DNA of 44,619 nucleotides from the IMG/VR virus record IMGVR_UViG_3300020034_000032, positions 1 through 44,619 of that record, one strand, 5' to 3'. Of this stretch, positions 4,921 through 41,446 are shown one piece after another. The notes beneath the pieces are model-generated. The model searched no databases, was not told the origin of the DNA, and saw nothing but the letters and a program-made list of their open reading frames with translations. Both the position numbers and the translations under genes were made by a program. This DNA is from a virus. Position 1 is the stretch's first letter. Each line of letters starts with the position of its first letter.

Positions 4921-7900
4921 CCCAACCCGACCCGAGCGCGTTCGCGTCGCAGATCTCTTCGCTGTCGGCCGCGAACACGGCACTGATCCGAACGCCGCAG
5001 ATCATCACGGCGCTCGCGAACGTGCACGGCACGCCGCAGCAGGCCGGGGCAATCAACGCGTTCCTTGAGCAGCAGAACAACGACAGCGCGGCGGCAGCAG
5101 TGCAGGCCGCGCAGGGTGCGGGCCTGTCGCCGCAGGGCGCGATCGACCAGTACAAGGCGCAGCTGGCTGCGCAGAACAAGCACCACGGGATCTCCGGGTT
5201 CTTCTACCACGTCACCCACAACCCGGTCACCGATGTGCTCAACAAGGGCACCAACTTCATCAACTCGGCGCTATCGGTCGGTGCGGGGATCGGTGAGGCG
5301 GCAGTCGAGGACGTCACTAACGCGGTCATCCACCCGGCGTCGCTGTTGCACGGCGGCGATTTCTCGCACTCGACCTCGCTGTCCGATTCAATCAAGCAGC
5401 AGGCTGCTGCCGCCGGCTACGACCCGAGCAACCCGTTCTCGATCGCCGCGTTCATGGCGTCCGGCCAGGTCCGGGAAGACCTGACCGACTTGCAGACGAA
5501 GGTTGCGCCGGCAACCTTCATTGATGTCGAGCATTACGTCAACAACCCGGAGGCATACCAGCGGAGCATCACCGACTCGTCGTCGATCCCGCCGGACCGC
5601 AAAGTCGCGATGCTCGCCGCGATCAACGGCAAAGAATTCCAGGATCTGGCGAAGCAAATCTCGGCCCGCAGCGCCACGGTCGGCCACTACGTCATCCACG
5701 GCGTCGGGCTTGACCCGACGTCCGGGTCCGGTAAGTGGATGGCTGCCGGTGTCGACCTGTTCGTCGGTTTCAAATTCGACCCGCTCATCGTCGTCGGCGG
5801 CACCGCGAAAGCGGTGTACCTCGCGCCGGTCACCCTGGCCGGGGCCGACGATGTCGGCACCGTCGCTCGGGTGTTAACGAAGCCGGAAGGTCTGTCGGCG
5901 AACGCTGCCGCCATCTTCATGACCCCTGGTGCGGTGCGCACCCGGCAGGGTTTCGAATACGCGCTCAACCAGACGCACAAAATCCAGGCCGCTAAGGCGG
6001 AAGGCGATCTCGCGAAGGTCGGCCAGTACGACGCCGAGTTCGCGAAAACCGCACCGGACCTCTACCAGTTCCGGGGCGACTTCGCCGGGGAAACCCAGAT
6101 CAAGGGCTTCAACACCGCGCCCGGCGCGGTGCGTAACCCGATCATCTTCGGTCCGGGGACGCCGATGAAAGACCTGGCCGACGTGAAGCAGTACTTCACT
6201 TCTGAACTGGGTCTGCAGCGGCTGCGTCTCGGTATGGCCGTGGAGAAGACCGCCATCATGCCCGGCCGGTTGTCGCTGACCGGGGCTCGGCAGCTGCGCG
6301 GTGTCCTCTCCGGTGCCGCGACCGCCCGGGGCGTACGGCGACTCACGATCGATCTGCGCAAGGCCGGCTACGCGCACAGTCTGCTGGCCACGCCCGGCGA
6401 CAACGCGGCGGCGACCGCCGTGGTTGATGCGGCCGACCCGACTGGTGGGCTCGCCGCGATCACCGCCGGGGCCGGTAGTGACCTGCCGGCGATCGAAGGC
6501 GCGGCCGGGTCGGCCGTGCTGCCGTCGCAGGCGCGCGGGGCGGCGACCGCCGCCGACATCGGTGACGTGGTCTTTGCCCGGCGGGCCGGGCGCAGCCTTG
6601 ACAGTGTGCAGTCCGGCAAGGAACTCACCGGCATGTCCGGAACCGCTCAGCAGTTGCTGCGGTCGCTGAACCCGTCGACGTATAACGCCCGGATGCGGCT
6701 GCTCGCGCAGCGCTGGTCGTCGACGCTGAACCGCGACGAAGTGATGACCACGGCCGGTATCGACATGACCGACAAGGTCCTCAAGTACGGCCAGATCTAT
6801 CTGCCTCGCTCGTACGCCCACGTTCTGCAGGGCCTGTACGGCATCGGCGACGAGGGTGCCCGCAAGGCGATCCTGCATTCGCTCGGCGTCTCACAACTGC
6901 ACGCCGCCGGCATGGGAACCACGGTCGGCGGCAAGGCGCTCATCGACAAGTTCGAAGAGGAGTTCGCCAACAACACCTACGGCCTGACCGGTTCGGCGTG
7001 GAAGGACCCGGCAACCGGCATGGTCCGCGACTCCGCGATCTGGGCCAGCCAGCTGCAGGAGAAGCTGACCCTGCCGAACATGCAGACGCTGATGAAGGTT
7101 GCGCCGAAGATCGGCATCTGGGAAAACACGATCGGCGCGGCACTCAACCGGCCCGTCGTCAACGCCCTGACGGACCTGGCCCGCATCGGCTGGGTGTTCC
7201 GTGCGGCGACCGCTGTGCGCGCCGTGCAGGAAGACTTGGCGTCGGTGGTTGGCCGGGAACGCTTCGGCGAGCACGTCCTCACCTTTATGGCCGCGAAGGA
7301 CGCCGGGCTCACCATCCCGTACAGCGCTGCCGCGCAACGCATCTTCAACACCAAGGCGTGGCAGGGCCTGATCGCACCGGTTGAGCGGTACTACCGTTCG
7401 CAGGGCATCAGTCTCGCCAGCAAGCTGCACCCGGAACTGGGCTTGGAGCACATCAGCAACCACTCGCCCGAGATGATGGCCGAGATGATGGGCACCTACA
7501 TGTCCACCCACATGCGGCAGATGATGAACCCGGACGCCGACATCGCCGACATGGCCCGCGCCGGCTACAACGTCAAGCGCGTGCGTATGCGCCAGAAGGT
7601 CGGCTACGGGGCGAAGGAAACCTTCGACAACGACGGGTCGATGGGCGGCGCGACGGCGTACGCCGCGCACCTCAAGACCGTGTTCGGTGGCGACGTCGAC
7701 TACGCCAACGAAGTGATGAACTACATCGACCGGGCCCGGCACGCGCCGGACGCCGACCCGAACCAGTTGTTCGACGACCTGGTCGCCACGCACATGAACA
7801 ACCTGCGCACCCCGCAGTACAGCCGCGATTCCGTGTTTCGCGATCCGAACACAAACGTCGACACCCAGGTCGCCACCGACGAGGAACGGTACAAGGCGGC

Positions 7901-13776: not shown

Positions 13777-13852
13777 AGCGACGTAGGGAAGCTCGGTTGT
13801 TCCCGCAGCCCTCATAAGGCTGAGATCGTGGGTTCGAATCCCACCGCCGCCA
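13777..13852 (+). tRNA. tRNA-Met-like (anticodon CAT)
   Basis: A full cloverleaf can be drawn over 76 nt: D stem GGGA/TCCC with an 11-nt loop containing GG, anticodon stem CAGCC/GGCTG with loop CTCATAA (anticodon CAT), T stem GTGGG/CCCAC with loop TTCGAAT. The acceptor stem 13777-13783 with 13845-13851 has two A-C mismatches, at the end pair and the fifth pair. No CCA is encoded after the A at 13852. The anticodon stem lacks the GGG/CCC pairs of an initiator. CAT could read Met, or Ile if lysidine-modified. The weak acceptor stem means it may be decaying. Confidence 0.68.
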
Positions 13853-13854
13853 CT

Positions 13855-18394: not shown

Positions 18395-19293
18395 TCGATC
18401 AGACCCGCAGCTATCTGCAGACGGCTGGGTCGGACACCGACCAGTCGTCGACGCTGGTGACGGTGCTCGACAGCAACGATCTGGTGTTCACGGCCAACCC
18501 GGCCCGGGGGCTCTCGACGGCGATGTCCGCCGGGTTGATCGAGATCGGCTCGGAACTGATCTGGGTCGACGGTATCGACGCGTCGGGTAACGCCACGATC
18601 CCGCCGTGGGGCCGGGGCATGCAGTCGACAACGGCGGCGGCGCACAGCGTCGGGGACCGCATCATCAGCCAGCCGCGTTACCCGCGTCAGTTGACTCTGA
18701 ACGAGATCAATATCGCGATCGGCCGGGTCTACCCGGGCGTGTTCGTGATCAAGCACTACAACACCATCACCACCAGTCCATCGATTACCTACGATCTCCC
18801 CGATGACTTCGAGTGGATTCTCAAGGCCGAATGGCTGATGCCGGACGGGCGCAACTACTGGCGCGACGTGACCAACATGCGCAGCAACGAAGGCGGTCGC
18901 CCGGTCGTCGCCGGCAACACCCCCGACAAAGGGCGCACCGTCGACATTGCCGAAAACTGCTCGGTCGGCCAGCCGCTGCACTTCGCCTACGCCGCGCAGC
19001 CTGTGCCGCTGGTCGCCGAGACTGACGACTTCACGACGGTGACCGGGCTCGGCACCAACATCACCGACGTGGTGTGCCTCGGCGCAGCCGCCAACATGAT
19101 CAACGCCTTCGAGGCAGTGCGGGTCCAGCAGTCCACGATCGAGCAGCAGACGCGCGGCCAGTACGTGCAGCCCGGCACGGCCATGAACGTGTCCAAGTAT
19201 CTAGAGCAGCGCTACCAACAGCGCCTCAAGGAAGAGCGGGCCGCTCTGCAGATCCAGTACCCGCCAGTGCAGCAGAGGATGTGGCGACATTGA
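18373..19293 (+). CDS. Head-to-tail adaptor / tail-tube candidate
   Basis: A 306-aa protein with a helical start (ASLIDQTRSYLQTA), a beta section with GLIEIGSELIWVDGI, then LNEINIAIGRVYPGVFVI, and a long C-terminal helix (YLEQRYQQRLKEERAAL). In short-tailed phages a protein of this size just before the fibre and nozzle genes is usually the adaptor ring below the portal. The match is by position and layout, not by a firm motif. The ATG overlaps the preceding gene by 22 nt. Confidence 0.55.
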   Translation: MVLAASLIDQTRSYLQTAGSDTDQSSTLVTVLDSNDLVFTANPARGLSTAMSAGLIEIGSELIWVDGIDASGNATIPPWGRGMQSTTAAAHSVGDRIISQPRYPRQLTLNEINIAIGRVYPGVFVIKHYNTITTSPSITYDLPDDFEWILKAEWLMPDGRNYWRDVTNMRSNEGGRPVVAGNTPDKGRTVDIAENCSVGQPLHFAYAAQPVPLVAETDDFTTVTGLGTNITDVVCLGAAANMINAFEAVRVQQSTIEQQTRGQYVQPGTAMNVSKYLEQRYQQRLKEERAALQIQYPPVQQRMWRH

Positions 19294-20489
19294 CCCGCCG
19301 GCACTACATCGATAACGCCCCGACCACCACGCTGTCGGGTTCGATCAACGCGTCCACCACCACGGTGGTGGTGGCGTCGCTGTCCGGCTACCCGACCAGC
19401 TTCCCGTTCCCGGCGACCATGGGCATGGGCACCACGTCGGCCGAACAGATCACCGTCATCTCGACGGTCGGCACCACACTGACGGTGATCCGTAACGCCA
19501 ACGGCCAGGGGGCGTTCAGCCACCCGGCCGGGGAAATCTTCAACCACACCGCCAACGCGGTCGAATACGACGAAGCCAACGCGCACGTCAACGCGTCGAC
19601 CGGTGTGCACGGCATCACGGGCGCGGTGGTTGGTACTACCGACAGCCAGACCCTGTCGAACAAGACGTTCGCGAACACTACGTTCAATGCGGTCGGCGGC
19701 GTGCCCGGCATCAACTTCACGACCGGTGCCACCTCCGACAACCCATGGGTTGCCCGTAACCCGTCGTCCACGATCGTGGCGAAGGTCGACGGCCTCGGCA
19801 CTATCACCGCTGTCACCCTCGCGGCGACGGCCGCCATCACGGCGGCGACCACGATCACCGCGACCGGCACGGTCACGGGCGGCGCGCTGACGACGGCCGG
19901 CAACGTCACCGGGTCCAGCCTCATCGGTTCGGCTGACGTGACCACCTCGACCGCGCGGCAGACAGCAGTTGCGGCGGTCACCCTGGCCTCGACCACGCAC
20001 GCCGAGCAGATCGGTGCGACCGCGTCGGCCAACATGGCGTTCGATACGGCGCATATCCAGGCCCGTAACAACGGCTCCGCCGCTGCGATCTCGGTCAATA
20101 GCCTCGGTGGCGACGTCACCATCGGCACCTCCGGTTCGGCGATCACGATCCCGGGCACGATCACCGCCGCCGGCACGGTCAACCTGACCGGCTCGGTCCG
20201 GGTCACCGGCCTCCTGCTCAATGCGGCCGGCGCGCAGCCGCTATTCCAGGGCGGGCTGAAGCTCTACACCTTCTCGGCACAGTCGGCGGTCACCTTGACC
20301 ACGACGTTCCCGACCGCGTTCGCTAACCCGCCGGCTATCGGGCTGGGCATCGCCAGCGCAGCCGGCGCAGTGGTCGGGGCCACCGCACTGATCACGGCGG
20401 TCACGGCGACCAACTTCACCGCCCGCATGGACCTGACGACGTCGCAGTCCCTGACCGTGAACCTGCACTGGGTTGCGATCGGACAGTAA
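19281..20489 (+). CDS. Tail fibre with lectin-like C-terminal tip
   Basis: About 402 aa. The N-terminal ~100 residues form a virion-attachment-like region (TRRHYIDNAPTTTLSG). A middle zone of Thr/Ala/Val-rich repeats includes SQTLSNKTFANTTF, a phrase common in trimeric fibres. The last ~75 residues (TFPTAFANPPAIGLGI ... NLHWVAIGQ) match the beta-sandwich tip seen in gp53-like or H-type-lectin fibre ends, which bind sugars. GTG 19281 or TTG 19290 could be the start; both overlap the previous gene, and 19281 is chosen with modest confidence. Confidence 0.72.
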   Translation: MATLTRRHYIDNAPTTTLSGSINASTTTVVVASLSGYPTSFPFPATMGMGTTSAEQITVISTVGTTLTVIRNANGQGAFSHPAGEIFNHTANAVEYDEANAHVNASTGVHGITGAVVGTTDSQTLSNKTFANTTFNAVGGVPGINFTTGATSDNPWVARNPSSTIVAKVDGLGTITAVTLAATAAITAATTITATGTVTGGALTTAGNVTGSSLIGSADVTTSTARQTAVAAVTLASTTHAEQIGATASANMAFDTAHIQARNNGSAAAISVNSLGGDVTIGTSGSAITIPGTITAAGTVNLTGSVRVTGLLLNAAGAQPLFQGGLKLYTFSAQSAVTLTTTFPTAFANPPAIGLGIASAAGAVVGATALITAVTATNFTARMDLTTSQSLTVNLHWVAIGQ

Positions 20490-22399: not shown

Positions 22400-22720
22400 A
22401 TGGCAGCAAGTAGTGTCGCCGGGATCATCACGGCCACCTCGACCGTACTGATCGCAGCCGGCGGAGTGATCGCCGCGCTCACCCTGTTCCTGCCGGTGCT
22501 CCGGGGGACCAAGCAGAACGCGGAAGCGATCGAGGAGGTCAAGGTCCAATCAGCCGAGATCCATACGATCGTCAACCAGCAACGCACCGACATGGGTAAC
22601 TACAATCGCGCCCTGATCCGGGCATTGCAGGATCAGGGCATCGCTGTACCAGTAGACCAGAGCGTTAAGACTCCACCGCAGGGGATTCCAGCGACTCCAC
22701 CGGTTCCCCATCCCGGGTGA
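22400..22720 (+). CDS. Small membrane protein, holin/spanin-like
   Basis: A 106-aa protein with one hydrophobic segment at about 7-33, then a charged helix (KQNAEAIEEVKVQSAEIHTI) and NQQRTDMGNYNRALIRAL, ending in a Pro-rich tail. Proteins of this shape occur near actinophage lysis genes and are often called holin or membrane protein. GGAGAG precedes the ATG, which follows the nozzle stop directly. It is the last rightward gene and its 3' end overlaps the leftward glycosyltransferase by 56 nt. Confidence 0.6.
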   Translation: MAASSVAGIITATSTVLIAAGGVIAALTLFLPVLRGTKQNAEAIEEVKVQSAEIHTIVNQQRTDMGNYNRALIRALQDQGIAVPVDQSVKTPPQGIPATPPVPHPG

Positions 22721-23432
22721 ACGACTCGACCATGCCGGTCAGGTCGGACACCTGCTTCTGCACCCGCCAGTCATTGATGGTGAGCATTCGTTCCTTCATG
22801 TGCCCCACCTCGACCCCGGTGTCGACGTAGATCGGCATGAGCGCCATCTGGGCCCGGATGCAGAACGTGACATCCTCGCTCATTGGCTCGCCTTTCCACG
22901 ACGACTCCTGAAACCAGGGGAACGCATCCGAGAACGCCGCCTTCTTGATCTTCTCCGCCGCCGCGCGGTGAATCATCAGGCACGCGGCACCGGTAGCCCA
23001 CACCTGAACGAGCGCATCGTCCGGCCACGACTCGGGCTGGATCAGCTGCTGGTTCTCGTCCATCAGATACATGGTGGTGGACACCTTGTTGTCGACCTTG
23101 CTGACCCGCCAGGTGAGGCCACCGACGATCGGCACCTCACCGCTGCACGACTCCGACAACTTCGACACCATGTCCGGGCGGAACACCATGTCTGAATCGA
23201 TTAGCATCAGTTTCTCCGCCGACGAATCCAGGAACTGCGCGACCGCCATGTTGCGGGCGCTGGTGATGTTCGCCGACGACTGGATGCGGGTCGCGCCGTA
23301 GATCTTGTGATCGTAGTTCGCGTCCCACACACCCATGTCGAGCAACGACTTCGTGAACTCGCCCCGGGTGTTGCCGTTGTCCAACCAGATCACCAGCACG
23401 TTGCGTTCGCCCGGCGGCAGCGCGCCGCTCAT
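22665..23432 (-). CDS. GT-A-type glycosyltransferase
   Basis: A 255-aa protein with an early Rossmann-like strand (NVLVIWLDNGN), the acceptor-side SARNMAVAQFLDS and the metal-binding LMLIDSDMVFRPD (DxD motif). These mark a glycosyltransferase of the GT2-like type found in phages. It transfers a sugar from an activated donor; the acceptor (virion protein, DNA or host surface) is unknown. ATG 23432 overlaps the previous stop (ATGA). The 3' end runs into the last rightward gene, tail to tail. Confidence 0.78.
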   Translation of the reverse strand: MSGALPPGERNVLVIWLDNGNTRGEFTKSLLDMGVWDANYDHKIYGATRIQSSANITSARNMAVAQFLDSSAEKLMLIDSDMVFRPDMVSKLSESCSGEVPIVGGLTWRVSKVDNKVSTTMYLMDENQQLIQPESWPDDALVQVWATGAACLMIHRAAAEKIKKAAFSDAFPWFQESSWKGEPMSEDVTFCIRAQMALMPIYVDTGVEVGHMKERMLTINDWRVQKQVSDLTGMVESFTRDGEPVESLESPAVES

Positions 23433-24211
23433 GTCGCCGCCGGCACGTACACCAGCGTCAACCGGTCCGGCTTCACCGTCGTGATCGAATCCGTCGTACC
23501 CCGCCAGCTGTGATCCTGACACCAGATCAGGTGGGTGCCTTCGTAAACTCCGAGCGCTCCGCTGGGCAGGGAAGACAGATCCTGCTCCGGGGTGATGACG
23601 TCTCCTACGGCCCATGAATGGCTCAACACCCTCACTTCGTAGATGTTGCTGTGCGCCTGGTTGATCCAGTACTTCATCTGGTTGTGGATGCTGTCGCCGT
23701 ACTTGATGCCGAACGACCAGTTGTTGCTCTGCGCCTCCACGTCGGATACGACGCCGCGCATTATCACCTCGACAGTGTCGCCGACGTTGACGACAACCCG
23801 GTCCACATGCTCCATAGCTTCCTTGCTCTCCCTCAACTCGTCGGCGGTCATCACCGGCAGCCCGGTCAGGTTGGCGACCTCCTCGGCCGCCTCCTCCTGG
23901 CTGAGTGCAGCCAGAACGTCGTCGTTAACGTGCAGCGTATTGATCGGCAGGATGCCCTTGCGTATCAGGCGTGGGGTGATGATCTCCTCGACCCGCTCAC
24001 CCTTGTCGTGCACCAGATCGCCCTTGTCGTCGTAGACATAGTTCGGGTGCGCGATCCCGGTGAACCCGGAACCCGACGTACGAATCCCGTTGTCGTCGAA
24101 CATGTGGTACACGAACGTGCCCACATCATTCGGTGGCCACGAGTCGATGGTCCAGGCCACGCCGGGCCACGCCGGCAAGGACACCACGTCGCCCGGCTCA
24201 AAGAGCGCCAT
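23429..24211 (-). CDS. Hypothetical protein with two small-barrel-like regions
   Basis: A 260-aa protein not recognised. The N-terminal section (FEPGDVVSLPAWPGVAWTI) and the C-terminal section (WAVGDVITPEQDL ... GVYEGTHLIWCQDHSW) both look like short SH3/KOW-type beta barrels; the centre holds an acidic helical stretch (ALSQEEAAEEVANLTG). It overlaps the glycosyltransferase by four bases, so they are probably co-expressed and could work together. Confidence 0.6.
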   Translation of the reverse strand: MALFEPGDVVSLPAWPGVAWTIDSWPPNDVGTFVYHMFDDNGIRTSGSGFTGIAHPNYVYDDKGDLVHDKGERVEEIITPRLIRKGILPINTLHVNDDVLAALSQEEAAEEVANLTGLPVMTADELRESKEAMEHVDRVVVNVGDTVEVIMRGVVSDVEAQSNNWSFGIKYGDSIHNQMKYWINQAHSNIYEVRVLSHSWAVGDVITPEQDLSSLPSGALGVYEGTHLIWCQDHSWRGTTDSITTVKPDRLTLVYVPAAT

Positions 24212-25216: not shown

Positions 25217-25526
25217 CTGCCAACTCCCTAAAGTCTTCGAGCCTCATCACAACCAGCCACTTCCCGATCTTCTCGGGGCCGTAGCCGTCCGGTCGCCAGA
25301 TGACGATCGGTGTGCCCTCGCCCGGGTGCTTCTCGCACTGTGTCATCGCACCGGTCAAGGTGCCGTCGCGGGTGGCTTTACATTCGACCCGCCAGCCCGG
25401 GGTGTTCTTGATGTCGGTGCCGGGCAGGCTGGCCGCGCGGCTTTCGCCACGCGGCCAGACACTGCGCATGAAATCGGCAACGATCTCCTGCGACTTGCGG
25501 CCCCGGCGAACCCGGGGACTAGGCAT
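25146..25526 (-). CDS. PD-(D/E)XK nuclease, resolvase-like
   Basis: A 126-aa protein. RRGRKSQEIVADFMRSVWP starts the fold, then PGTDIKNTPGWRVECKAT supplies the Asp and ExK of a PD-(D/E)XK active site, followed by PIVIWRPDGYG and WLVVMRLEDF strands. The size fits small phage Holliday-junction resolvase-like or related nucleases. It probably processes replication or recombination intermediates before packaging. The ATG overlaps the vWA gene end. Confidence 0.7.
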   Translation of the reverse strand: MPSPRVRRGRKSQEIVADFMRSVWPRGESRAASLPGTDIKNTPGWRVECKATRDGTLTGAMTQCEKHPGEGTPIVIWRPDGYGPEKIGKWLVVMRLEDFRELADGRAMGLSGDGRAQAPSDVVDHA

Positions 25527-26211
25527 GCGCCTTACCGCTGCAGCCGCAGTCCGGGATCATGCACACGTCGGACGCCATCGCCGCACGCACAGTTTCGGCC
25601 ACCGCGTCCCGCCCGGTTGACGCCAGCAAAATCGTCGAGCCACGGAGCGCGTCGTACGTGTTGTGGGTGCCTTGCCCGGTCGCCCGGGTGTTCACGTACG
25701 AGCCGTGCCGGATACCCATGCCCCTCGCTTGCAGCCAAGTGTCCATACCGGCACCCAGATAAATGACCGACCAGCGCTGCAGTTCCTGCCGCGCATCCAG
25801 CATCATCTTGGTAGTGCTGGCGGTGTACTCCACCGAAGAGTTCTCCAAACCATCGGTTTGGATCACCACCAGCACCCGGTCATTCTTGGCCAGGCCGGTT
25901 TTGGTGTGCGCGTTCTCGAAGTCGATGACAGTGCGGCACACCGCATCGTAGAGCGCGGTGTTGCCACCGGTTGCGTAGTTGTTGTGGTCCAAATCGGGGA
26001 CCTTGTCCAGTTCGGCGTCGACGCAGAGCAGCCTGTAGGTCGTGTCGAACAGCGCAACCGTCAACCGGTACTCGTGCTTGTCATCCTTGCGGAGCCCGTC
26101 GACGTACGCGTTGAATCCGCCGCGCACATCCCCGGCGAGATGGAACATGCTGCCCGACTTGTCGACCACCATCAGGACGTGGGTGACTGCCGTGCGGTGC
26201 TTGCCTGCCAT
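25519..26211 (-). CDS. vWA-domain protein
   Basis: A 230-aa von Willebrand factor A protein. The metal site is complete: DKSGSM (Asp17, Ser19, Ser21), the Thr in GGNTALYDAV, and the Asp in VIQTDGLEN. A Cys-rich end (CMIPDCGCSGKAHA) may bind a metal. vWA domains mediate protein-protein contacts and often work beside ATPases; no such partner is next to it here. GAGGAGAGG precedes the ATG. Role in the phage unknown. Confidence 0.82.
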   Translation of the reverse strand: MAGKHRTAVTHVLMVVDKSGSMFHLAGDVRGGFNAYVDGLRKDDKHEYRLTVALFDTTYRLLCVDAELDKVPDLDHNNYATGGNTALYDAVCRTVIDFENAHTKTGLAKNDRVLVVIQTDGLENSSVEYTASTTKMMLDARQELQRWSVIYLGAGMDTWLQARGMGIRHGSYVNTRATGQGTHNTYDALRGSTILLASTGRDAVAETVRAAMASDVCMIPDCGCSGKAHA

Positions 26212-26229: not shown

Positions 26230-27279
26230 TTAGCCGAGCGGAGTCGCTAGCGGCGTACCGGCCGGGTAGTACACATTCGTTGACCCGACACCCTCAGTCG
26301 CGCAGTCCGACGTCGGTCCATATATGCCAACCTTCGCCCCGTACTTCGTCGAGAACTTGTTGCCCTGCACCGTAAACGCGCTATCCGCACCGCGAGGGCA
26401 GTACAGCGTGTACCCGCCACCGGCCAGCAGGTTGTCGGAGATTTTGACGTTGGTGTCGCCGCCGCCCTGGTTGTCGTAGATGATCGCCGACGTCGCCTGC
26501 AACGACGCCGGACCCGAGTCGAACGTGTTGTGCACGATGCTCACATTCGACGCCGCACCATCGGTCTGCAAACCATCCGTGTGCGCTCCGGACGCGCCGG
26601 ACAGCAGGTCGTGAACGTAGTTGTCGTGGATGTTCGAGTTCGGGCCGATGTAGAACCCGTTCTCACAGCCGTGGATGTTGTTCCCCGACGCGACGAAGTT
26701 GTCGACGATGATCGCCGTACCCTGGCCGGGCTGCCCGGCCGTGTTGTTGCAGGTCAGCTCATTGTTTGTGATCGTCAACGCAGCGCCGGTGGAGATGCCG
26801 TCGGAGTTGATGACGAACCCGCCGTTGCAGTCGATACGGTTGTTTTTGATCGTGACACCGGTCGCTTTGACCAGGACGCAGCCGGTGATGTTCATGCCCT
26901 GCAGCGTGCTACCGGCGGTGGTGATGGTGATGTCGCCGGTGTGCGCCGTCAGCGTGCCGGCGGGGCCGGTGTTAGTGGCGTCGGGGTAGCCGGCCAGCGG
27001 GGGCGTGCTGACCGATGGGCTCGGCGTTGGTGTGGCCGATGACGTACTCGGCGTCGGCGTCGGGTGCAGCAGCGCGTTGCCCTGGTTGAACACGGCGACG
27101 CAGTTCTGTGCGAACGTCACCTGGTCGGGGGTCAGCGTGTTGCCGGCACCCTGTGCGGCGGTACATACCGTTGCGTTGTCAGTTGCCGTGGTAGTCGTGT
27201 CCGCAGCGGACACACCAAGCATGGCTCCGGCGAACGCGAGCCCTGCAATACCAACCACTGCGAAATAGCTCTTCCTCAT
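26230..27279 (-). CDS. Secreted right-handed beta-helix protein
   Basis: A 349-aa protein. A Sec signal peptide (RKSYFAVVGIAGLAFAG, likely cut near GVSA) is followed by a Cys-containing segment and a Thr/Ser/Pro linker (HPTPTPSTSSATPTPSPS). The rest is a parallel beta-helix with repeated N-rich turns (VTIKNNRIDCNGG, LTITNNELTCNN, NVKISDNLLAGGG). Such folds occur in polysaccharide lyases and surface-binding proteins; no catalytic residues can be assigned. It is not in the tail block, so it is more likely exported during infection than a tailspike. Confidence 0.8.
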   Translation of the reverse strand: MRKSYFAVVGIAGLAFAGAMLGVSAADTTTTATDNATVCTAAQGAGNTLTPDQVTFAQNCVAVFNQGNALLHPTPTPSTSSATPTPSPSVSTPPLAGYPDATNTGPAGTLTAHTGDITITTAGSTLQGMNITGCVLVKATGVTIKNNRIDCNGGFVINSDGISTGAALTITNNELTCNNTAGQPGQGTAIIVDNFVASGNNIHGCENGFYIGPNSNIHDNYVHDLLSGASGAHTDGLQTDGAASNVSIVHNTFDSGPASLQATSAIIYDNQGGGDTNVKISDNLLAGGGYTLYCPRGADSAFTVQGNKFSTKYGAKVGIYGPTSDCATEGVGSTNVYYPAGTPLATPLG

Positions 27280-27306
27280 GCGTTTCCTTTCCGGGGGTTG
27301 TGGTGC

Positions 27307-28128
27307 TTACGAGTGGGAGAAGTAGCCAACAATGTTGACGTTGTACCGTCCCACGGGGAATGACAGCGAGTCGACGTCGCCACCAGCCGGCAGGGTGCCA
27401 GCTTCGCCGCAGTCGAACGATCCACCGACGTTGACCTTGACGTTGGTCGCGGTCGAGGTGATGTCGGTCGGGGCAGCACCAGCGGCACCGTCGCCGTACT
27501 CGCACGGCACGTCCGGGCCACCCGCGTTGAAGTCTTGAACGTCCAGGTTGATGCGCGGGTAGAACTTCTCACCGGACTTCGTGCTGTACGCCTGGATGGT
27601 GAACACGCACGGTGCCTGCGCGGCCGAGCATGAGAAGCGGAAGTTGGTACCAGCGTTGTCGCCCATGACAGCCGGGCTGCCGAGCGTGGTACTCGCCGTG
27701 GCCCAGATGGTGGGGTCAGCGCCACTACGCGAGACCAGCGCGTTCATGACACCGTACTGGACGGTTGCGGCCGGAGTGCCCGCGTCACCCTTATCGCCCT
27801 TGGCGCCCGCAGCACCAGCTGGACCGGTCGCGCCGGTGTCACCCTTCACGCCCGCAGCACCAGTCGCGCCCGTCGTGCCCGTCGCGCCAACACCGGAGGC
27901 GATGGGGAATCCGAGGCCACCGTTTGAGCACGTCGCGTCGTTCAGCGTCGGGTTGACGAAGACAGCCCCGCCTGACCGCGCGCACATGTGGTAGGTGTTG
28001 CCCGACCGCCCAACGCCCGGACGATCGCTGGCATTGGCGACGCCCGCGAACGCGAGAGCGCCGATGACGACTCCCACAACGGTCGTGGTGATAGCACTCT
28101 TGCGGTGCTTGATAAGCCAGCTCTTCAC
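27307..28128 (-). CDS. Secreted collagen-like protein
   Basis: A 273-aa protein. It has a signal peptide (basic start, hydrophobic 12-30, cut near VANA), a short Cys domain, 13 uninterrupted Gly-X-Y triplets at about residues 81-119 (GAAGVKGDTGATGPAG-type) and a ~150-aa C-terminal beta domain with two Cys pairs. Collagen triplets trimerise. In virions they occur in fibres, but the signal peptide points to export. GTG start with GAAGGAG upstream; GTGA overlap with the gene before it. It is followed at once by the secreted beta-helix gene. Confidence 0.82.
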   Translation of the reverse strand: MKSWLIKHRKSAITTTVVGVVIGALAFAGVANASDRPGVGRSGNTYHMCARSGGAVFVNPTLNDATCSNGGLGFPIASGVGATGTTGATGAAGVKGDTGATGPAGAAGAKGDKGDAGTPAATVQYGVMNALVSRSGADPTIWATASTTLGSPAVMGDNAGTNFRFSCSAAQAPCVFTIQAYSTKSGEKFYPRINLDVQDFNAGGPDVPCEYGDGAAGAAPTDITSTATNVKVNVGGSFDCGEAGTLPAGGDVDSLSFPVGRYNVNIVGYFSHS

Positions 28129-28340
28129 TTGTACTCCTTCAATTGATGATCCGGGTGGAACGTGTACGCCTTTTCGATTACCGACACCACGGTGCAGTGC
28201 TCGAAAGGGTTGTGCTGCACGACGGTGAGTCCACCAGCCTCAACCAGGTCACTGTCGGGAATCCTGAGCACGAACAACCCCGGCTCCACGGCGACACCGT
28301 GGCGCTTGATCAGCGCCGCCAGGGTTAGCTCGTCAATCAT
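28125..28340 (-). CDS. Small hypothetical protein
   Basis: A 71-aa protein (MIDELTLAALIKRHGVAV ... EKAYTFHPDHQLKEYK). It looks like a compact alpha-beta domain; no family is recognised. GGAAG precedes the ATG, and its stop overlaps the GTG of the collagen-like gene. Confidence 0.6.
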   Translation of the reverse strand: MIDELTLAALIKRHGVAVEPGLFVLRIPDSDLVEAGGLTVVQHNPFEHCTVVSVIEKAYTFHPDHQLKEYK

Positions 28341-28566
28341 TGGCACTTCCCTTCGCCTCCATTTCGGCGACCTTCGCTCGCAGTTCAGCCATGCGCACCG
28401 CCGACAGCTCGGCATCTTCGAGCCGGTAGATCAGGCTGTCCCAGCCAGCCGCGATCTTGATCCAGGTCCGTGCGTTCGCGTTCGCGCTCGCACCGCCGTA
28501 GCTGACCTGCCTCTCGGCCTGCTCAAGCGCCTTGACCTGACGCTCGGTTGCTTCCTGGGCGTTCAC
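28333..28566 (-). CDS. Small helical protein
   Basis: A 77-aa charged helical protein (EATERQVKALEQAERQVS ... MAELRAKVAEMEAKG) with likely coiled coils at both ends. GTG 28566 is chosen because AAGGGAG lies just upstream; an earlier ATG at 28590 sits inside a terminator hairpin with no ribosome site. Function unknown. Confidence 0.55.
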   Translation of the reverse strand: MNAQEATERQVKALEQAERQVSYGGASANANARTWIKIAAGWDSLIYRLEDAELSAVRMAELRAKVAEMEAKGSAND

Positions 28567-29278: not shown

Positions 29279-29525
29279 CTTCCTCTTTCCCCTCGTCCAC
29301 AAAGGATTTCCAGTAGTCGGTGTCGGCTGCGAGCAGTTCCTCGATCTGCGGACACAGGGTCTTGATCTTCTCGGTCTTGTCGAGCGCGACCTGAAACCCT
29401 TCCGGTGAGCCGATCACGATCTCAACCGGCACAGCGTAAAGGTCAGTGCAGAGCCGGTATAGCTCCACCAGTTTCGAATACAGTGCGTCGGTCACTACCC
29501 GTGGCACGTCATCCCCCTCGCTCAC
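29265..29525 (-). CDS. Small acidic hypothetical protein
   Basis: An 86-aa protein from GTG 29525 (GTGA overlap with the SPFH gene). It is helical with an acidic C-terminus (FVDEGKEEDANS). No motif recognised. Confidence 0.58.
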   Translation of the reverse strand: MSEGDDVPRVVTDALYSKLVELYRLCTDLYAVPVEIVIGSPEGFQVALDKTEKIKTLCPQIEELLAADTDYWKSFVDEGKEEDANS

Positions 29526-30481
29526 TTCGCCTGCACGGTCAGCGGCAGGCTCGCGCCGCCGCTGTTGCAGTTGAAGTTCGCCGGCAACTGATACTTGTTG
29601 GCGATCGCGTTGTTCACCACGTTCAGGCAGTTCTGTTGGAACGCCTGCGCGCTGGTGCCAAGTGCCGCGTTAGCCGCAGCGACCGCCTTGTTCGTGTCTT
29701 CCAGCCGCTGAGCAACCAGCGTCTGCGCCGCCTGCTTCGTGACCGCGTTCAGGTTCTGCTGCACATCCGGCGAGTAGGTGATGCCCACGATCTTCACCGA
29801 GCGCAGCACCAGGCCGGACGGCATGGCCGCGTTCACCTCCGACTCGACCGGCGCGGCCAACGTGGTGACAGCAACAGTGCTGCCACCCTTCTGGTCGATG
29901 ACGGCTAGCGGGTCCCAGCCAGCGAACTGGTCATTCAGGGCCACCTGCAGCGACCGCTTCACGACGTTGTTCTCGACGTTGGCGAACGTCTGCCAGTTGT
30001 TGTAGAGCGACAGGAACTGATCGTTCGGGTCGATCTGCCACTGCGCGGACACGTCAACGTGCGCCTCGGTGTTGTTCTTGAGCCGCACCACCTGGTCGAA
30101 CGTGACCGGCTGGATGACGGTCGGGAACAGGGTGACCTTCGACCACGGCCGCATCCAGTGCCCGCCATTACTGACGACACCGGACGGGCGTCCTTGGACG
30201 GTGACGACGCCGACGTTGCGCGCCGGGATCGACTGGTGCGACGCGACGATGATGCCCATGCCGCCGACCACGAAGAACACGAGGCCGACGAGTGCAACGA
30301 TCGGGCCAACCGGCGACCTGCCGCCCGGGATGGTCTCGGTGTTGCGTTCCCCGGTGTACGGGTCGCGATAGCTGGCGGTGCGCTCTTCCTTCGGTTCCTC
30401 AAGCTTCCACCAGATCAGCCCGCCGATCAGGGCGAAGAACCCAAGAGCCCCCACCACGATCAAGAAAATTGATAGTCCCAT
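29522..30481 (-). CDS. SPFH/band-7 membrane protein
   Basis: A 319-aa protein with two membrane spans at about 4-26 and 58-82, then a band-7-like domain (IPARNVGVVTVQGRPSG ... FDQVVRLKNNTEAHVDVS ... SLQVALNDQF) and a coiled helix (NAVTKQAAQTLVAQRLEDTN). SPFH proteins form membrane rings that scaffold microdomains or regulate proteases. In a phage it could shield the membrane, alter host protease activity or block superinfection. GGGGAGAGG precedes the ATG. Family call firm, role inferred. Confidence 0.82.
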   Translation of the reverse strand: MGLSIFLIVVGALGFFALIGGLIWWKLEEPKEERTASYRDPYTGERNTETIPGGRSPVGPIVALVGLVFFVVGGMGIIVASHQSIPARNVGVVTVQGRPSGVVSNGGHWMRPWSKVTLFPTVIQPVTFDQVVRLKNNTEAHVDVSAQWQIDPNDQFLSLYNNWQTFANVENNVVKRSLQVALNDQFAGWDPLAVIDQKGGSTVAVTTLAAPVESEVNAAMPSGLVLRSVKIVGITYSPDVQQNLNAVTKQAAQTLVAQRLEDTNKAVAAANAALGTSAQAFQQNCLNVVNNAIANKYQLPANFNCNSGGASLPLTVQAK

Positions 30482-31232: not shown

Positions 31233-31377
31233 CGCCGGCCGCCCGTTCGGCCGCTCTGCGCTGAGCGATGGTCTTGGTGAGATCGATTTCTGACCCGTCG
31301 CTGCGGAAGGCGCGCACCTGCAACTCTGGGCCGCGATAGAACCAGGTCCAGAACTTCCACCAGCGTCGCTCATTCAT
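31225..31377 (-). CDS. Very small protein
   Basis: A 50-aa protein with a Trp/Phe-rich start (NERRWWKFWTWFYRGPELQV) and a charged helical end (IAQRRAAERAAGDE). The aromatic N-terminus could lie on a membrane. ATG 31377 is fixed by the ATGA overlap with the lipoprotein gene. Confidence 0.58.
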   Translation of the reverse strand: MNERRWWKFWTWFYRGPELQVRAFRSDGSEIDLTKTIAQRRAAERAAGDE

Positions 31378-31706
31378 CGCCGCACTACCTCTGCCGGGCC
31401 ACCGTGCCCTACGCACGCGCCCGGTGTCTTGATGTAGGACATCCCGCTGTCGCCGCAGATCCAGGTGGCACCGTGCGCGGTCGCGTAGTCGGTTTCGGCC
31501 TGGTTCTTCGGGAACGTGACGCTGGTGTCCTTCGGGATGATGGACGCCGACGCCTTGCCGGTCGGGGCGGGCCCGACGTGCGTGGTGTGCGCGTCGGACG
31601 GTGTGGCCTTACATCCGGCCAGCGCGGCCAGTGCGAACCCGGTGATCACCAGGGCGATCACTATCCATGCCGTGAACGCCCAGCGGGCGGTCTTGTCGTT
31701 AACCAT
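31374..31706 (-). CDS. Phage-encoded lipoprotein
   Basis: A 110-aa protein with a charged start, a hydrophobic segment (14-31) and the lipobox LAGC ending at Cys32, followed by a Ser/Thr/Pro region and a small domain with two Cys (WICGDSGMSYIKTPGACVG). Lipid anchoring outside the membrane fits known superinfection-exclusion lipoproteins, but that role is inferred. AAGGGAGAG lies 4 nt before the ATG. Confidence 0.72.
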   Translation of the reverse strand: MVNDKTARWAFTAWIVIALVITGFALAALAGCKATPSDAHTTHVGPAPTGKASASIIPKDTSVTFPKNQAETDYATAHGATWICGDSGMSYIKTPGACVGHGGPAEVVRR

Positions 31707-32097
31707 TTCCCTCTCCCTTTTCGAATCTTGTCCGCCACCATTCGGTGGCGGGGTCGGGCTCTATCTCGATCACCGCCACCCCGTTGTCCCGCGCTTGGCG
31801 GGTCATGTCGGCGGTGCCTCTTCCTCCCCAGAACGCGACGACCGCGTCGACTGGGTAGCCCTCGTGCAGCATGAGTCGGTTGCGGATCGGCCCGGCTGCT
31901 TTCTGGTCGTGGAACCAGTCCGGGTAGTACACCCGGTGGTGGATGCGCTTGGCTCGGGCGTAGGTGATGGCGAGGGAATCTATCCCGGCTGTTCCCCCGG
32001 CAATAATTTCCGTGGGCCCTATTCCGCCCAGCCTACTTGATAGATATACGTAACTGCATGACTCGAACCAGCGGGACCCGCAGACGATGATCCTCAC
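31699..32097 (-). CDS. SLOG-family protein (DUF2493, YspA-like)
   Basis: A 132-aa Rossmannoid protein: RIIVCGSRWFES at the start, EIIAGGTAGIDSLAITYA in the middle, VDAVVAFWGGRGTADMTRQA and IEIEPDP at the end. This is the SLOG fold of DUF2493/YspA proteins, predicted to bind a nucleotide or nucleotide-derived ligand. Substrate unknown. GTG 32097 overlaps the stop of the DUF397-like gene (GTGA). The ATAGATATACGTAA repeat lies inside this gene at 32040-32053. Confidence 0.78.
   Translation of the reverse strand: MRIIVCGSRWFESCSYVYLSSRLGGIGPTEIIAGGTAGIDSLAITYARAKRIHHRVYYPDWFHDQKAAGPIRNRLMLHEGYPVDAVVAFWGGRGTADMTRQARDNGVAVIEIEPDPATEWWRTRFEKGEGNG
32040..32053. repeat. 14-bp direct repeat, copy 1
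   Basis: ATAGATATACGTAA, identical to 32279-32292. A/T-rich against a GC-rich background. This copy is inside the SLOG gene. Confidence 0.7.
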
Positions 32098-32261
32098 GGG
32101 GTGACCCGGCGCACGAAATCGATGTACTGCTGCCATTCTTCGAGGGTGAACTTCATCGCGCCCCGGCGCGGATGCGCCGTGTCTACGACATACACGATTC
32201 CATTTTCCTCGAACACGCTCACACACTCCCCGGTGTCACAGCGGAATTCCCAGTCATACAT
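32094..32261 (-). CDS. DUF397-like small protein
   Basis: A 55-aa gene shorter than usual ORF cut-offs. It reads YDWEFRCDTGECVSVFEENG, then VYVVDTAHPRRG and MKFTLEEWQQYIDFVRR. This follows the DUF397 plan: GxCV-x-V, then V-x-V-x-D-x3-P, then L-x-F-[ST]-x-x-EW-x-x-[FY]. In actinomycetes DUF397 proteins are usually partners of helix-turn-helix regulators. GGAGG and GTGGAG precede the ATG at 32261. The stop overlaps the SLOG GTG. Family inferred from pattern. Confidence 0.66.
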   Translation of the reverse strand: MYDWEFRCDTGECVSVFEENGIVYVVDTAHPRRGAMKFTLEEWQQYIDFVRRVTP

Positions 32262-38948: not shown

Positions 38949-39980
38949 CTAGTCGGGCAGTATGTTTCCCCGGTCGTCAACCCGCACGGCCGTCTTGAGT
39001 GCCCTGGCGGGCACTAGCTCCTTGCCTGACGCATGTCGGGTGCGTAGCAGCTTCATCGATCCCGAAAACTCAGCTTCGGTCCCGTCGTGCGCCGGACCCA
39101 AGACGACGGGTGACCGTGCATCGTCCCACCATGTTTTCTTGTCCGCCGTGGTGCCGTGGCAATACTTCAACGGCCACGACGACTTGCACCAGCATTCCTC
39201 TAGGTTGTCATCGTCCAGGCCGCGCGGGAGTCCGTAGCAGTCGCAGTCTCGCGGCTGCATGTCGCAGGACACGCAAGCGTCGCACCAGTTGCACGACCCT
39301 AGCCGCATGTCCACGACGAGGAGCGATCTACCGCACATCACGCACGACCGGTCAGTCGGTGCGTAGTCACCCGGGCGGTATGCGTGGCGGATACCCTTGT
39401 GACCGGGCATCGCCCACGCAAACGACGTGTTCGAATACCAGACACCGTCCAGCCAGTCGCCTTCTTTCTCGTTGATGATGATGCCCTGCTTGCCGTATGA
39501 GGGGTTCACGGTCAGGATCACCAGTTTGTTGTATGCGGTGATCGCGTTCGCCAATCGCTGTTGGTTGTGTTTCAACCACAACGGGCCGTAGCGCTGCGGC
39601 ACTAGCTGCAGCGCCAACAGGCGCGTATCGGACCAGGTCGAACCCTTCACCGGTTGCATCCAGGCGGGCAAGATTCCGTTGTGCGCCAACACGGTGCGCC
39701 GGTCGCGGCCCACATAGAACGGGTGGCAGTTGTCGAGATCGTTCGGGCCGGCCGTGCCGATACGGGAGTGAAAGAGCGCCGGACCGTTCGGGTGCAGCGC
39801 GCGGGATGTTTCGAAGGCGTCGACAACTTCCGGCCCCTTCATTCCCTTGTGGACAATCAAACAGTCATTGTCGTTGTCGACAATGGCAAAACCGTGCCCG
39901 TCACTGTTGATGACCGTGCCAGCTAGCAGCCGGTCGCGGTCGATGTCAGCGCCGATCGGGAAGTAAGTCAGGAGACACAT
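38949..39980 (-). CDS. Class-II glutamine amidotransferase
   Basis: A 343-aa N-terminal-nucleophile enzyme. It begins MCLLTYFP, so Cys2 becomes the N-terminal nucleophile after Met removal; NSDGHGFAIV, ALFHSRIGTAG and VLAHNGILP match the glutamine-binding and oxyanion elements. It frees ammonia from glutamine for a partner enzyme. A Cys-rich zinc-like region follows at about 215-270 (CVMCGRSL ... CNWCDACVSCDM). It overlaps the amidoligase gene by 13 nt, so the two are almost surely one functional pair. Confidence 0.8.
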   Translation of the reverse strand: MCLLTYFPIGADIDRDRLLAGTVINSDGHGFAIVDNDNDCLIVHKGMKGPEVVDAFETSRALHPNGPALFHSRIGTAGPNDLDNCHPFYVGRDRRTVLAHNGILPAWMQPVKGSTWSDTRLLALQLVPQRYGPLWLKHNQQRLANAITAYNKLVILTVNPSYGKQGIIINEKEGDWLDGVWYSNTSFAWAMPGHKGIRHAYRPGDYAPTDRSCVMCGRSLLVVDMRLGSCNWCDACVSCDMQPRDCDCYGLPRGLDDDNLEECWCKSSWPLKYCHGTTADKKTWWDDARSPVVLGPAHDGTEAEFSGSMKLLRTRHASGKELVPARALKTAVRVDDRGNILPD

Positions 39981-41446
39981 AGCTTGCTCATTTCTGCGGT
40001 TAGCGGTGCGTAGTCCGGGCGGTCATTGACCCAGGTACGGAACGCACCCCACGACCACCCGTCGTCCTTAATGATCTGACGGGAGGTGAGGTGTCGGGTG
40101 TACTCCACACTTGCCGATGCCAGCCCTAGGGCCGCGCCTAGCTCTTGCTTGTCCAATGTGGAGGCGAATACTCGCATCTCGAAAGTGTTCGCGTTGGTTG
40201 TGTTGACCGCGCTGTAACGCTGCGGACCGTTGCCGTACCCGCTGCGCTCCGCTTCGGTCTGTGCCGCTTCATACAGCCGGTTGTATTCCGCGCTGCGTGG
40301 GTAGGTGCTACGGGAGCGACCGGGCAGATAGTCGCCGTACGTACGGGACTCACTACCGACCGGACCCCACAACCAGGTGTCGCGATCTTCACGGATAGCC
40401 GCAAACCGTTGTGCCGCAAGCGATGCACGCTCCGGCAGGTTTGGCTTCGCAACCCGCCTAGCTAGCGCGCGCTCGCTGGCATGGAACCGTGCCCAGCTAG
40501 AACTACGTCGCCGCGCGATCGCGGTGACGCCCCTCTCGTTGCGGTAAATGAACTTGAGCCAGCGGTAGACATGCGTCGGACTTGAAAACCCGTCACGGTT
40601 GACGTGAATGTGCAGCCCGCAACTGTCTGCGGCACGGGCACGGCGACGCTTGGCCAGGTCCAGCACATCGAACGGGAAATTATCGATCGCCCAGTTATAG
40701 GACATCGGGTGCGTGACCATTTCGAAGCCGTACGAGATCGAGCCGTCGTGCTTGAGGTAGGCGAGATCCCGCGTGGTTGCGTTGGCATCGAACACGTCAA
40801 GCAAGGCGCGCCCGGTCGACTGCTCCCGGTCGGGACCGGTCTCCATCTCAAGTTCGAAGCCCATAAATGTGGGGCCGTCGCCGTAGAAGACCGGAGTCGG
40901 ACGGTAGTAGTAATCGTGAACGGTGGCGCGGCCGGGCGATACCGGGTTACAGCACGGATCAGTGCATCTGCTGCCGTCGTAGTTGTTGTCCTCGCCGTCG
41001 CCCTCGTCCTCTTCGCCGATGTACGTAGGGCACGAGTCGCGACCGCAGTCGGTTGACGAAAAATCGGCAGTGAACTCGCGGCATGAGGTGCATACGGTCG
41101 CGTAATTCGATGCGTGGTAACGACACCAAGTCTGCGCAGTTTCGAGGTGTTCGATGTAGACCACGGTGCGGTCCGTCATCTCCCGATCGCAGAACATGCC
41201 GGAACGGCGGTCTACCCATTCACATTCGCCGTAGTGGCGCGGCCGGGTGCGCTCACGTCGTCTTGCGGCCGCAATGTCGTAGGAGATTGACGGGGCGTGG
41301 GCGATAACTGGGGCTGTCGTGCGGATTGTGAGCGTGGTAAGCGGCTGCAGTTCGGCCGGGTCGGCAGGTGTCGCCCAGTCGCGCGTAAGCGACTCGTAAT
41401 CGATCTGGAACGGCTGCAGTTCGGGCGGGTCGTGAATCTCAGGCAT
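39968..41446 (-). CDS. Amidoligase (glutamine-synthetase-like)
   Basis: A 492-aa protein. The C-terminal ~300 residues carry the amidoligase plan: MGFELEMETG, LKHDGSISYGFEMVTHPMS, SCGLHIHVNRDGF and TFEMRVFASTL, giving the Glu, Asp, His and Arg sites of the glutamine-synthetase-like ligase family that joins a carboxylate to an amine with ATP. The N-terminal ~170 residues contain a Cys-rich stretch (CTSCREFTADFSSTDC) that may bind zinc. AAGGGAGAGG precedes the ATG. Substrate unknown: peptide, protein tail or modified nucleobase are all possible. Confidence 0.78.
   Translation of the reverse strand: MPEIHDPPELQPFQIDYESLTRDWATPADPAELQPLTTLTIRTTAPVIAHAPSISYDIAAARRRERTRPRHYGECEWVDRRSGMFCDREMTDRTVVYIEHLETAQTWCRYHASNYATVCTSCREFTADFSSTDCGRDSCPTYIGEEDEGDGEDNNYDGSRCTDPCCNPVSPGRATVHDYYYRPTPVFYGDGPTFMGFELEMETGPDREQSTGRALLDVFDANATTRDLAYLKHDGSISYGFEMVTHPMSYNWAIDNFPFDVLDLAKRRRARAADSCGLHIHVNRDGFSSPTHVYRWLKFIYRNERGVTAIARRRSSSWARFHASERALARRVAKPNLPERASLAAQRFAAIREDRDTWLWGPVGSESRTYGDYLPGRSRSTYPRSAEYNRLYEAAQTEAERSGYGNGPQRYSAVNTTNANTFEMRVFASTLDKQELGAALGLASASVEYTRHLTSRQIIKDDGWSWGAFRTWVNDRPDYAPLTAEMSKLCVS

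Follow-up and report, generated by a model that had tools for sequence, protein, structure and literature searches.

Adjoining genes for a predicted exported beta-helix protein and a predicted exported collagen-like protein in the accessory arm of a Beephvirinae-related actinophage

The DNA analyzed here is an IMG/VR virus record of 44,619 bases (IMGVR_UViG_3300020034_000032), hereafter called the window. Two adjoining genes on its minus strand encode proteins with signal-peptide-like N-termini. P0001 (positions 26230-27279) starts with ATG and encodes a putative exported beta-helix protein of 349 aa, whereas P0002 (positions 27307-28128) starts with GTG and encodes a putative exported collagen-like protein of 273 aa. 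In P0001, the signal peptide (aa 1-25) is followed by a Cys-containing helical stretch (approximately aa 33-71), a Thr/Pro/Ser linker (approximately aa 72-93) and a predicted right-handed beta-helix (approximately aa 95-345) with an invariant His233. P0002 is composed of a signal peptide (aa 1-33), a stretch with a Cys pair (C49 and C67), 13 Gly-X-Y triplets (aa 81-119) and a C-terminal domain (aa 119-273). The sequence AAGGA lies 5 nt upstream of the P0001 ATG and there is no in-frame start between this ATG and the preceding stop, while AAGGAG lies 5 nt upstream of the P0002 GTG, which overlaps the stop of the upstream ORF. At the downstream in-frame starts (aa 8, 20, 23 and 54 of P0001; aa 18 and 48 of P0002), the Shine-Dalgarno match was weaker or absent. 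Signal peptides were evaluated with a home-made score, different from SignalP, that considers a positive n-region, a hydrophobic h-region and an A-X-A-like cleavage site. P0001 scored 8.66 with cleavage after aa 25, a value reached by 5 of 2000 N-terminal shuffles, and P0002 scored 9.62 with cleavage after aa 33, reached by 1 of 2000. Besides the pair, only one window ORF of at least 60 aa scored 8.66 or more (31374-31706, minus strand). These frames and home-made scores agree with the preliminary description of this DNA, which had proposed two adjoining leftward genes with Sec-type signal peptides. Starts located past the signal peptides, named there as its weak point, were checked, and the best Shine-Dalgarno site precedes the first start in both genes. 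The number of cysteines was also considered as a sign of export; the mature chains have even numbers (8 and 6), yet other leftward genes are equally dense (about 2%), making this character uninformative.

The next gene downstream of the pair (25519-26211, minus strand) belongs to the phage gene family phrog_7371, some relatives of which are annotated as von Willebrand factor A-like. Upstream, a small ORF (28125-28361, minus strand) has its stop overlapping the GTG of P0002, and the two are likely co-translated judging from this arrangement. A host-phage assembly chimera was ruled out because phage gene families are found on both flanks of the pair and the P0002 start overlaps the preceding ORF stop. 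Two further leftward genes encode products that might be directed to the envelope. The first (22665-23615, minus strand; phrog_34859, E 5.4e-17) is a glycosyltransferase-like gene located directly beyond the structural genes, at the far end of the leftward stretch, and it may be part of the same envelope-directed set. The second is the high-scoring ORF at 31374-31706, upstream of the pair and in the same direction, which encodes a small likely lipoprotein whose N-terminus ends in ALAALAGC, with a lipobox (LAGC) recognized by eye; we infer that it is a third exported product of the leftward arm. Beside this gene lies one for a YspA-like SLOG-family protein (31699-32226, minus strand; PF10686, E 2.3e-9), and slightly upstream of the pair is a gene for an SPFH/Band 7 membrane protein (29522-30481, minus strand; PF01145, E 6.7e-21; phrog_200). 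Farther away, two overlapping genes encode a class-II glutamine-amidotransferase-like protein (38949-39980, minus strand) and an amidoligase (39968-41446, minus strand; PF12224, E 5.8e-9), possibly a peptide- or wall-modifying pair. Promoter and terminator scans of the window gave nothing beyond shuffle level.

By its gene content, the window can be assigned to a Beephvirinae-related actinophage, and its host group is the soil-type actinobacteria. Its portal matched 31 INPHARED records at approximately 37% identity, most of them from Beephvirinae-type phages of Streptomyces. The window shares with phages Manuel, Abafar and Vorvolakos a gene order comprising terminase, portal, NlpC/P60 tail protein, major head protein, minor tail protein and a phrog_11667 protein; of these relatives, Abafar is described as a podovirus and predicted to be virulent (PMC11536984). 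P0001 and P0002 are outside this syntenic structural block, which reaches position 22720, and lie in the leftward accessory arm, shortly after the rightward structural genes stop. Small hypothetical genes occupy the corresponding place in Manuel, Abafar and Vorvolakos. The nearest viral fragments, L005 (87% in the major head protein), L006 (69%) and L007 (55% in the phrog_11667 protein), are pieces of 11-21 kb without P0001 and P0002. The beta-helix was likewise absent from all 34 window-related viral records among 39 records searched; these 34 are IMG/VR pieces, many of which are incomplete. The GC3 values of the pair (0.83 and 0.78) are inside the range of the other window genes (0.68-0.88). 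Between the tail and head genes, the window has one tRNA-Met (13777-13853, plus strand), a place where related Streptomyces phages have 14 to 21 tRNA genes. In 9 of 85 viral loci (L013, L015, L027, L041, L058, L063, L064, L073 and L077), a different type of putative exported protein is encoded directly after the phrog_11667 gene, with a signal peptide, a beta-like domain, a very long Pro/Glu/Ser/Thr linker and a conserved end. No strong PHROG was found for the six of these nine proteins that were checked, and the starts of those from L063, L073 and L077 look near-identical. Proteins of this type possibly span the wall.

Starting at aa 81, P0002 has an unbroken row of 13 Gly-X-Y triplets. In 20,000 shuffles, the longest run was 7 when the whole protein was shuffled and 9 when the local segment was. 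Pfam family PF01391 matched with an E of 6.5e-6 and 26.3 bits, slightly under the 27.2-bit cut-off. The PHROG matches to the Gly-X-Y stretch were mostly tail fibres, and no phage fibre domain was found outside the run using Pfam and PHROG. When 396 Actinomycetota genomes were searched, 21 matched P0002 at E <= 0.001, many via the collagen run alone. Selecting places where the match begins before query residue 40, we found eight distinct genes in six genomes (L141, L142, L144, three of L146, L157 and L165) that share the part order of P0002: either a signal peptide or a hydrophobic start, then a Cys pair and finally a Gly-X-Y run. Excluded from this count were L164, which covers the L146 place again, L166, which lacks the Cys pair, and L145 and L149, which are built differently. 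The Cys-pair stretch of P0002 alone (residues 31-80) gave a best E of 0.75, so that the tie to these actinobacterial collagens is one of layout and not of statistics. In this layout, P0002 is built like the predicted secreted collagens of actinobacteria. Its C-terminal domain had no relative in the databases searched, INPHARED included, and its model, made without an alignment, was unreliable (mean pLDDT of 46.6). P0002 itself was not found in INPHARED, genome contigs or plasmids, a weak negative since the BLAST low-complexity filter masks collagen repeats; the actinobacterial Cys-domain gave a best E of 9 against INPHARED.

No significant Pfam or PHROG family was obtained for P0001. Its AlphaFold2 model, made with a 27-row alignment, has a confident beta-helix core (block means of 95-97 for residues 101-150) and aligned with solved right-handed beta-helices at VIA-align Z values of up to 19.7. 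Foldseek matches were weak (best E 3.6e-3 in PDB and 8.8e-4 among viral structures), and the fold assignment rests on the AlphaFold2 model and on the VIA-align Z, a value that cannot separate an enzyme from a binder. According to this model, P0001 is a right-handed beta-helix. The preliminary description had proposed 13 Gly-X-Y triplets in one gene and a Thr/Pro linker with a beta-helix in the other and had called for a fold prediction; the run beyond shuffles and the beta-helical model are in line with it. The modelled fold leaves the function undecided: virion tailspikes are also right-handed beta-helices, and the best-aligned chains, tied at Z 19-20, are alginate epimerase/lyase, NosD, alginate lyase and tailspikes. 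In a 47-row family alignment that includes P0001, His233 is present in 47 of 47 rows and Asp235 in 94%, and Asn251, Asn283 and Asn307 are invariant. Across the family, the invariant His and nearly invariant Asp form an HxDG motif, a candidate catalytic pair recognized from the alignment. These observations bear on the possibility that P0001 acts in the host exopolysaccharide as a secreted hydrolase, lyase or epimerase and thereby lets progeny escape from hyphae or flocs by diffusion, with P0002 anchoring or stabilizing it. The alginate epimerase/lyase and alginate lyase among the closest structures, the HxDG residues and the precedents of WceF (PMC7949094) and RbmB (PMC11637428) point in this direction. 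However, the His/Asp pair is a candidate, matched to no known active site, and the remaining structures tied with these two either are not enzymes or only bind glycans. We regard such matrix loosening as possible but not very likely.

Homologues of P0001 were found in bacteria. A tblastn search of plasmid records returned 32 records, including Pararhizobium (E 2e-21), Microvirga (3e-16), Nonomuraea (2e-13) and Sinorhizobium, and a bacterial genome scan gave 30 loci from Nonomuraea, Planobispora, Nocardioides, Georgenia, Tessaracoccus, Acidimicrobiia and rhizobia. Six of the 396 Actinomycetota genomes matched at E <= 1e-6, with E values down to 4.9e-27. The family profile, which itself includes P0001, matched P0001 with an E of 4.7e-67 and nothing else in the window; the tail fibre at 19074-20489, which has an H-type lectin domain at its cut-off, was not matched. 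The actinobacterial members are built like P0001, with a signal peptide or lipobox, a Pro/Thr/Ser linker and the beta-helix, and in most rhizobial members the home-made score detects no Sec signal peptide. Based on these homologies, P0001 belongs to a bacterial family of predicted secreted beta-helix proteins. Neither P0001 nor the Nocardioides beta-helix was found among the sampled phages of INPHARED, and a single-protein scan of viral contigs confirmed no close relative of P0001 or P0002. In a 49-row family tree, P0001 emerges from an open fork with a branch length of 1.53, apart from the two phage sequences described below; its origin is unreadable from this tree.

We inspected the neighbours of the beta-helix gene in 10 bacterial loci, hand-chosen from 34, scanning part of the neighbours and using no random-locus control, and found polysaccharide genes adjoining in seven. 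These comprised Wzz, CpsD/CapB, WecB and glycosyltransferases (L087), CpsD/CapB (L089), UDP-glucose dehydrogenase and epimerase (L100), glycosyltransferase and polysaccharide deacetylase (L105), UDP-GlcNAc 2-epimerase (L106), a flippase-type polysaccharide synthesis protein with a pyruvyl transferase (L120) and a flippase-type protein (L102). The three other loci had no clear polysaccharide gene: L091 had none, and L104 (Asn synthase) and L118 (acyltransferase) were ambiguous. The phage has no exopolysaccharide operon, the nearest candidate being the glycosyltransferase-like gene 2.6 kb from P0001. The lack of such an operon is expected for a phage-borne copy, and we treat P0001 as related to the family and acting in its manner, without counting it as part of an exopolysaccharide locus. 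The proximity of surface polysaccharide genes to the family also fits a role in receptor masking or superinfection exclusion, in which the beta-helix would bind the receptor glycan and the collagen stalk would retain it on the cell, sparing later phages or progeny adsorption to doomed cells or debris. Glycosyltransferases and small lipoproteins are common in exclusion modules, and the leftward arm has one candidate for each. On the other hand, the tail fibre at 19074-20489 shares no beta-helix with P0001 and relatives without P0001 and P0002 thrive. We regard masking, like matrix loosening, as possible but not very likely.

Scanning viral contigs with the beta-helix alignment revealed two loci, L167 and L168. 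L168 (IMGVR_UViG_3300045391_000899) is a piece of phage genome of 8 kb that encodes a portal, a head maturation protease and a major head protein. At L168 positions 5245-6531, a single chain comprises a signal peptide, a coiled-coil-like stretch (by eye), a long Gly-X-Y run, a Pro/Glu linker and the beta-helix. Its ATG at 5245 is preceded by GAAAGGA and its signal-peptide score is 9.04. P0001 and this fusion share 27% identity (blastp, E 5e-14), and the order collagen-then-beta-helix is the gene order P0002-P0001 of the window. A second, truncated beta-helix protein with predicted export follows the fusion. The record that contains L167 is 152 kb long and includes terminase and portal genes; the L167 protein, not found in INPHARED, has a signal-peptide-like start (score 8.3), a PTPT linker and the beta-helix. 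The family is thus present in three phage records and coupled to collagen in two, by adjacency in the window and by fusion in L168. Neighbouring genes that are found fused elsewhere are a usual sign of products working together. The L168 fusion therefore supports a partnership, which the preliminary description had implied by adjacency, and P0001 and P0002 probably act together, the sample being small with one fusion found. Gly-X-Y-like runs were observed in three of 68 beta-helix loci, which are mostly bacterial and partly overlapping: L168, L171 (the L168 place again) and L087, the last being an antisense artefact of a Pro/Thr linker. No true collagen run was found beside a bacterial beta-helix in these loci within the flanks available.

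The L167 and L168 loci also inform two other explanations. If the pair were passenger genes, recently acquired from a host and with no role in infection, one could account for homologues that are bacterial, for their absence from every isolated INPHARED phage and for the lack of the beta-helix in the 34 window-related records. Against this stand the GC3 values within the range of the other genes, the tightly packed start and stop signals and the recurrence of the same module in two other phage lineages, and we find a passenger origin improbable. Alternatively, the hydrophobic N-termini could be membrane or assembly anchors of proteins that end up on particles. Virion fibres typically contain collagen and beta-helix domains, the PHROG matches of the Gly-X-Y stretch are mostly tail fibres, and a virion role is conceivable with the L167 and L168 homologues among head genes. 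However, the pair is outside the structural block shared with Manuel, Abafar and Vorvolakos, both N-termini contain cleavage-site-like sequences and are preceded by good ribosome sites, and none of the eight listed collagen-type ORFs at related viral loci (two of them artefacts by eye) has a signal peptide. We consider virion parts very improbable.

We moderately favor the explanation that the pair are accessory genes whose products leave by Sec and act at the envelope or extracellular matrix on the surface polysaccharide of the infected cell. The position in the leftward accessory arm and the lack of signal peptides in the collagen ORFs of related loci argue for exported, non-virion proteins, as had been suggested, and the presence of the beta-helix family in bacterial exopolysaccharide loci is consistent with the proposed action on surface polysaccharide. 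The idea of virion-fibre domains redirected outward holds in part: both proteins look exported, but a fibre ancestry is unneeded with a family of bacterial secreted proteins for P0001 and an actinobacterial collagen layout for P0002. According to our model, the leftward operon would be read after infection and P0002 and P0001 made from their adjoining frames, exported by Sec and trimmed of their signal peptides. P0001 would be a phage copy of the bacterial exopolysaccharide-locus beta-helix, kept off the membrane or wall by its Thr/Pro linker, and would bind or cut the host surface polysaccharide, catalysis being one of the two options. The Gly-X-Y stretch of P0002 could form a trimeric stalk that presents the P0001 beta-helix or its own C-terminal domain and supplies reach and trimer avidity. 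The phage might benefit through receptor masking against a second phage or through matrix loosening for progeny escape, adhesion being a further option. Another idea is counter-defence outside the cell, proposed because a secreted actinobacterial protease has been reported to lower phage infectivity (PMC13175485). It is also possible, though we would not count on it, that the collagen stalk and beta-helix heads make a tailspike-like device outside the particle, formed by two partners or by one chain as in L168 and never present in the virion.

By exporting domains of the virion-fibre type from the cell it infects, a phage would act on the host surface in a different manner. If true, this locus would offer a testable case of a phage altering actinobacterial matrix or receptors before lysis, as well as an entry point to an uncharacterized family of beta-helix proteins encoded repeatedly at exopolysaccharide loci in two bacterial phyla. 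Known phage exports include small proteins for lysis or exclusion and certain enzymes, such as Tgl of Kayvirus (PMC7150955). Our literature search, in which most subscription journals were outside the scope, found no exported collagen and beta-helix pair in a phage.

The closest known counterparts of P0001 are the bacterial exopolysaccharide-locus beta-helix proteins of Nocardioides, Tessaracoccus, Georgenia, Planobispora and Nonomuraea as well as Sinorhizobium, Pararhizobium and Mycoplana. They share with it 28-37% identity, the TG(V)PxGT start motif, HxDG and the Asn ladder, and the actinobacterial ones also share the Pro/Thr linker and a signal peptide or lipobox; P0001 differs in being phage-borne, in adjoining a collagen-like gene and in its long branch without a firm sister. 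Actinobacterial secreted collagen-like proteins have the part order of P0002 (signal peptide, Cys pair, Gly-X-Y run and variable C-terminus), whereas P0002 is phage-borne and has a short collagen stretch and a C-terminal domain without relatives. The tail fibres of E. coli prophages have Gly-X-Y repeats in common with P0002, but they are described with phage-fibre N- and C-terminal domains (PMC3368898), which P0002 lacks while having a signal peptide. WceF of Pantoea stewartii is reported as an exported trimeric beta-helix from a biofilm operon that hydrolyses its exopolysaccharide (PMC7949094). At the level of build, it resembles P0001, as predicted, in being an exported right-handed beta-helix with a tailspike-like fold and a link to an exopolysaccharide operon, but it is bacterial, Tat-exported, 736 residues long and a demonstrated hydrolase (PMC7949094). 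The L168 fusion resembles the window pair in its predicted signal peptide, Gly-X-Y run, Pro linker and homologous beta-helix, arranged in the same order; it differs in being one chain instead of two genes, in following the major head protein gene and in belonging to an unrelated phage type.
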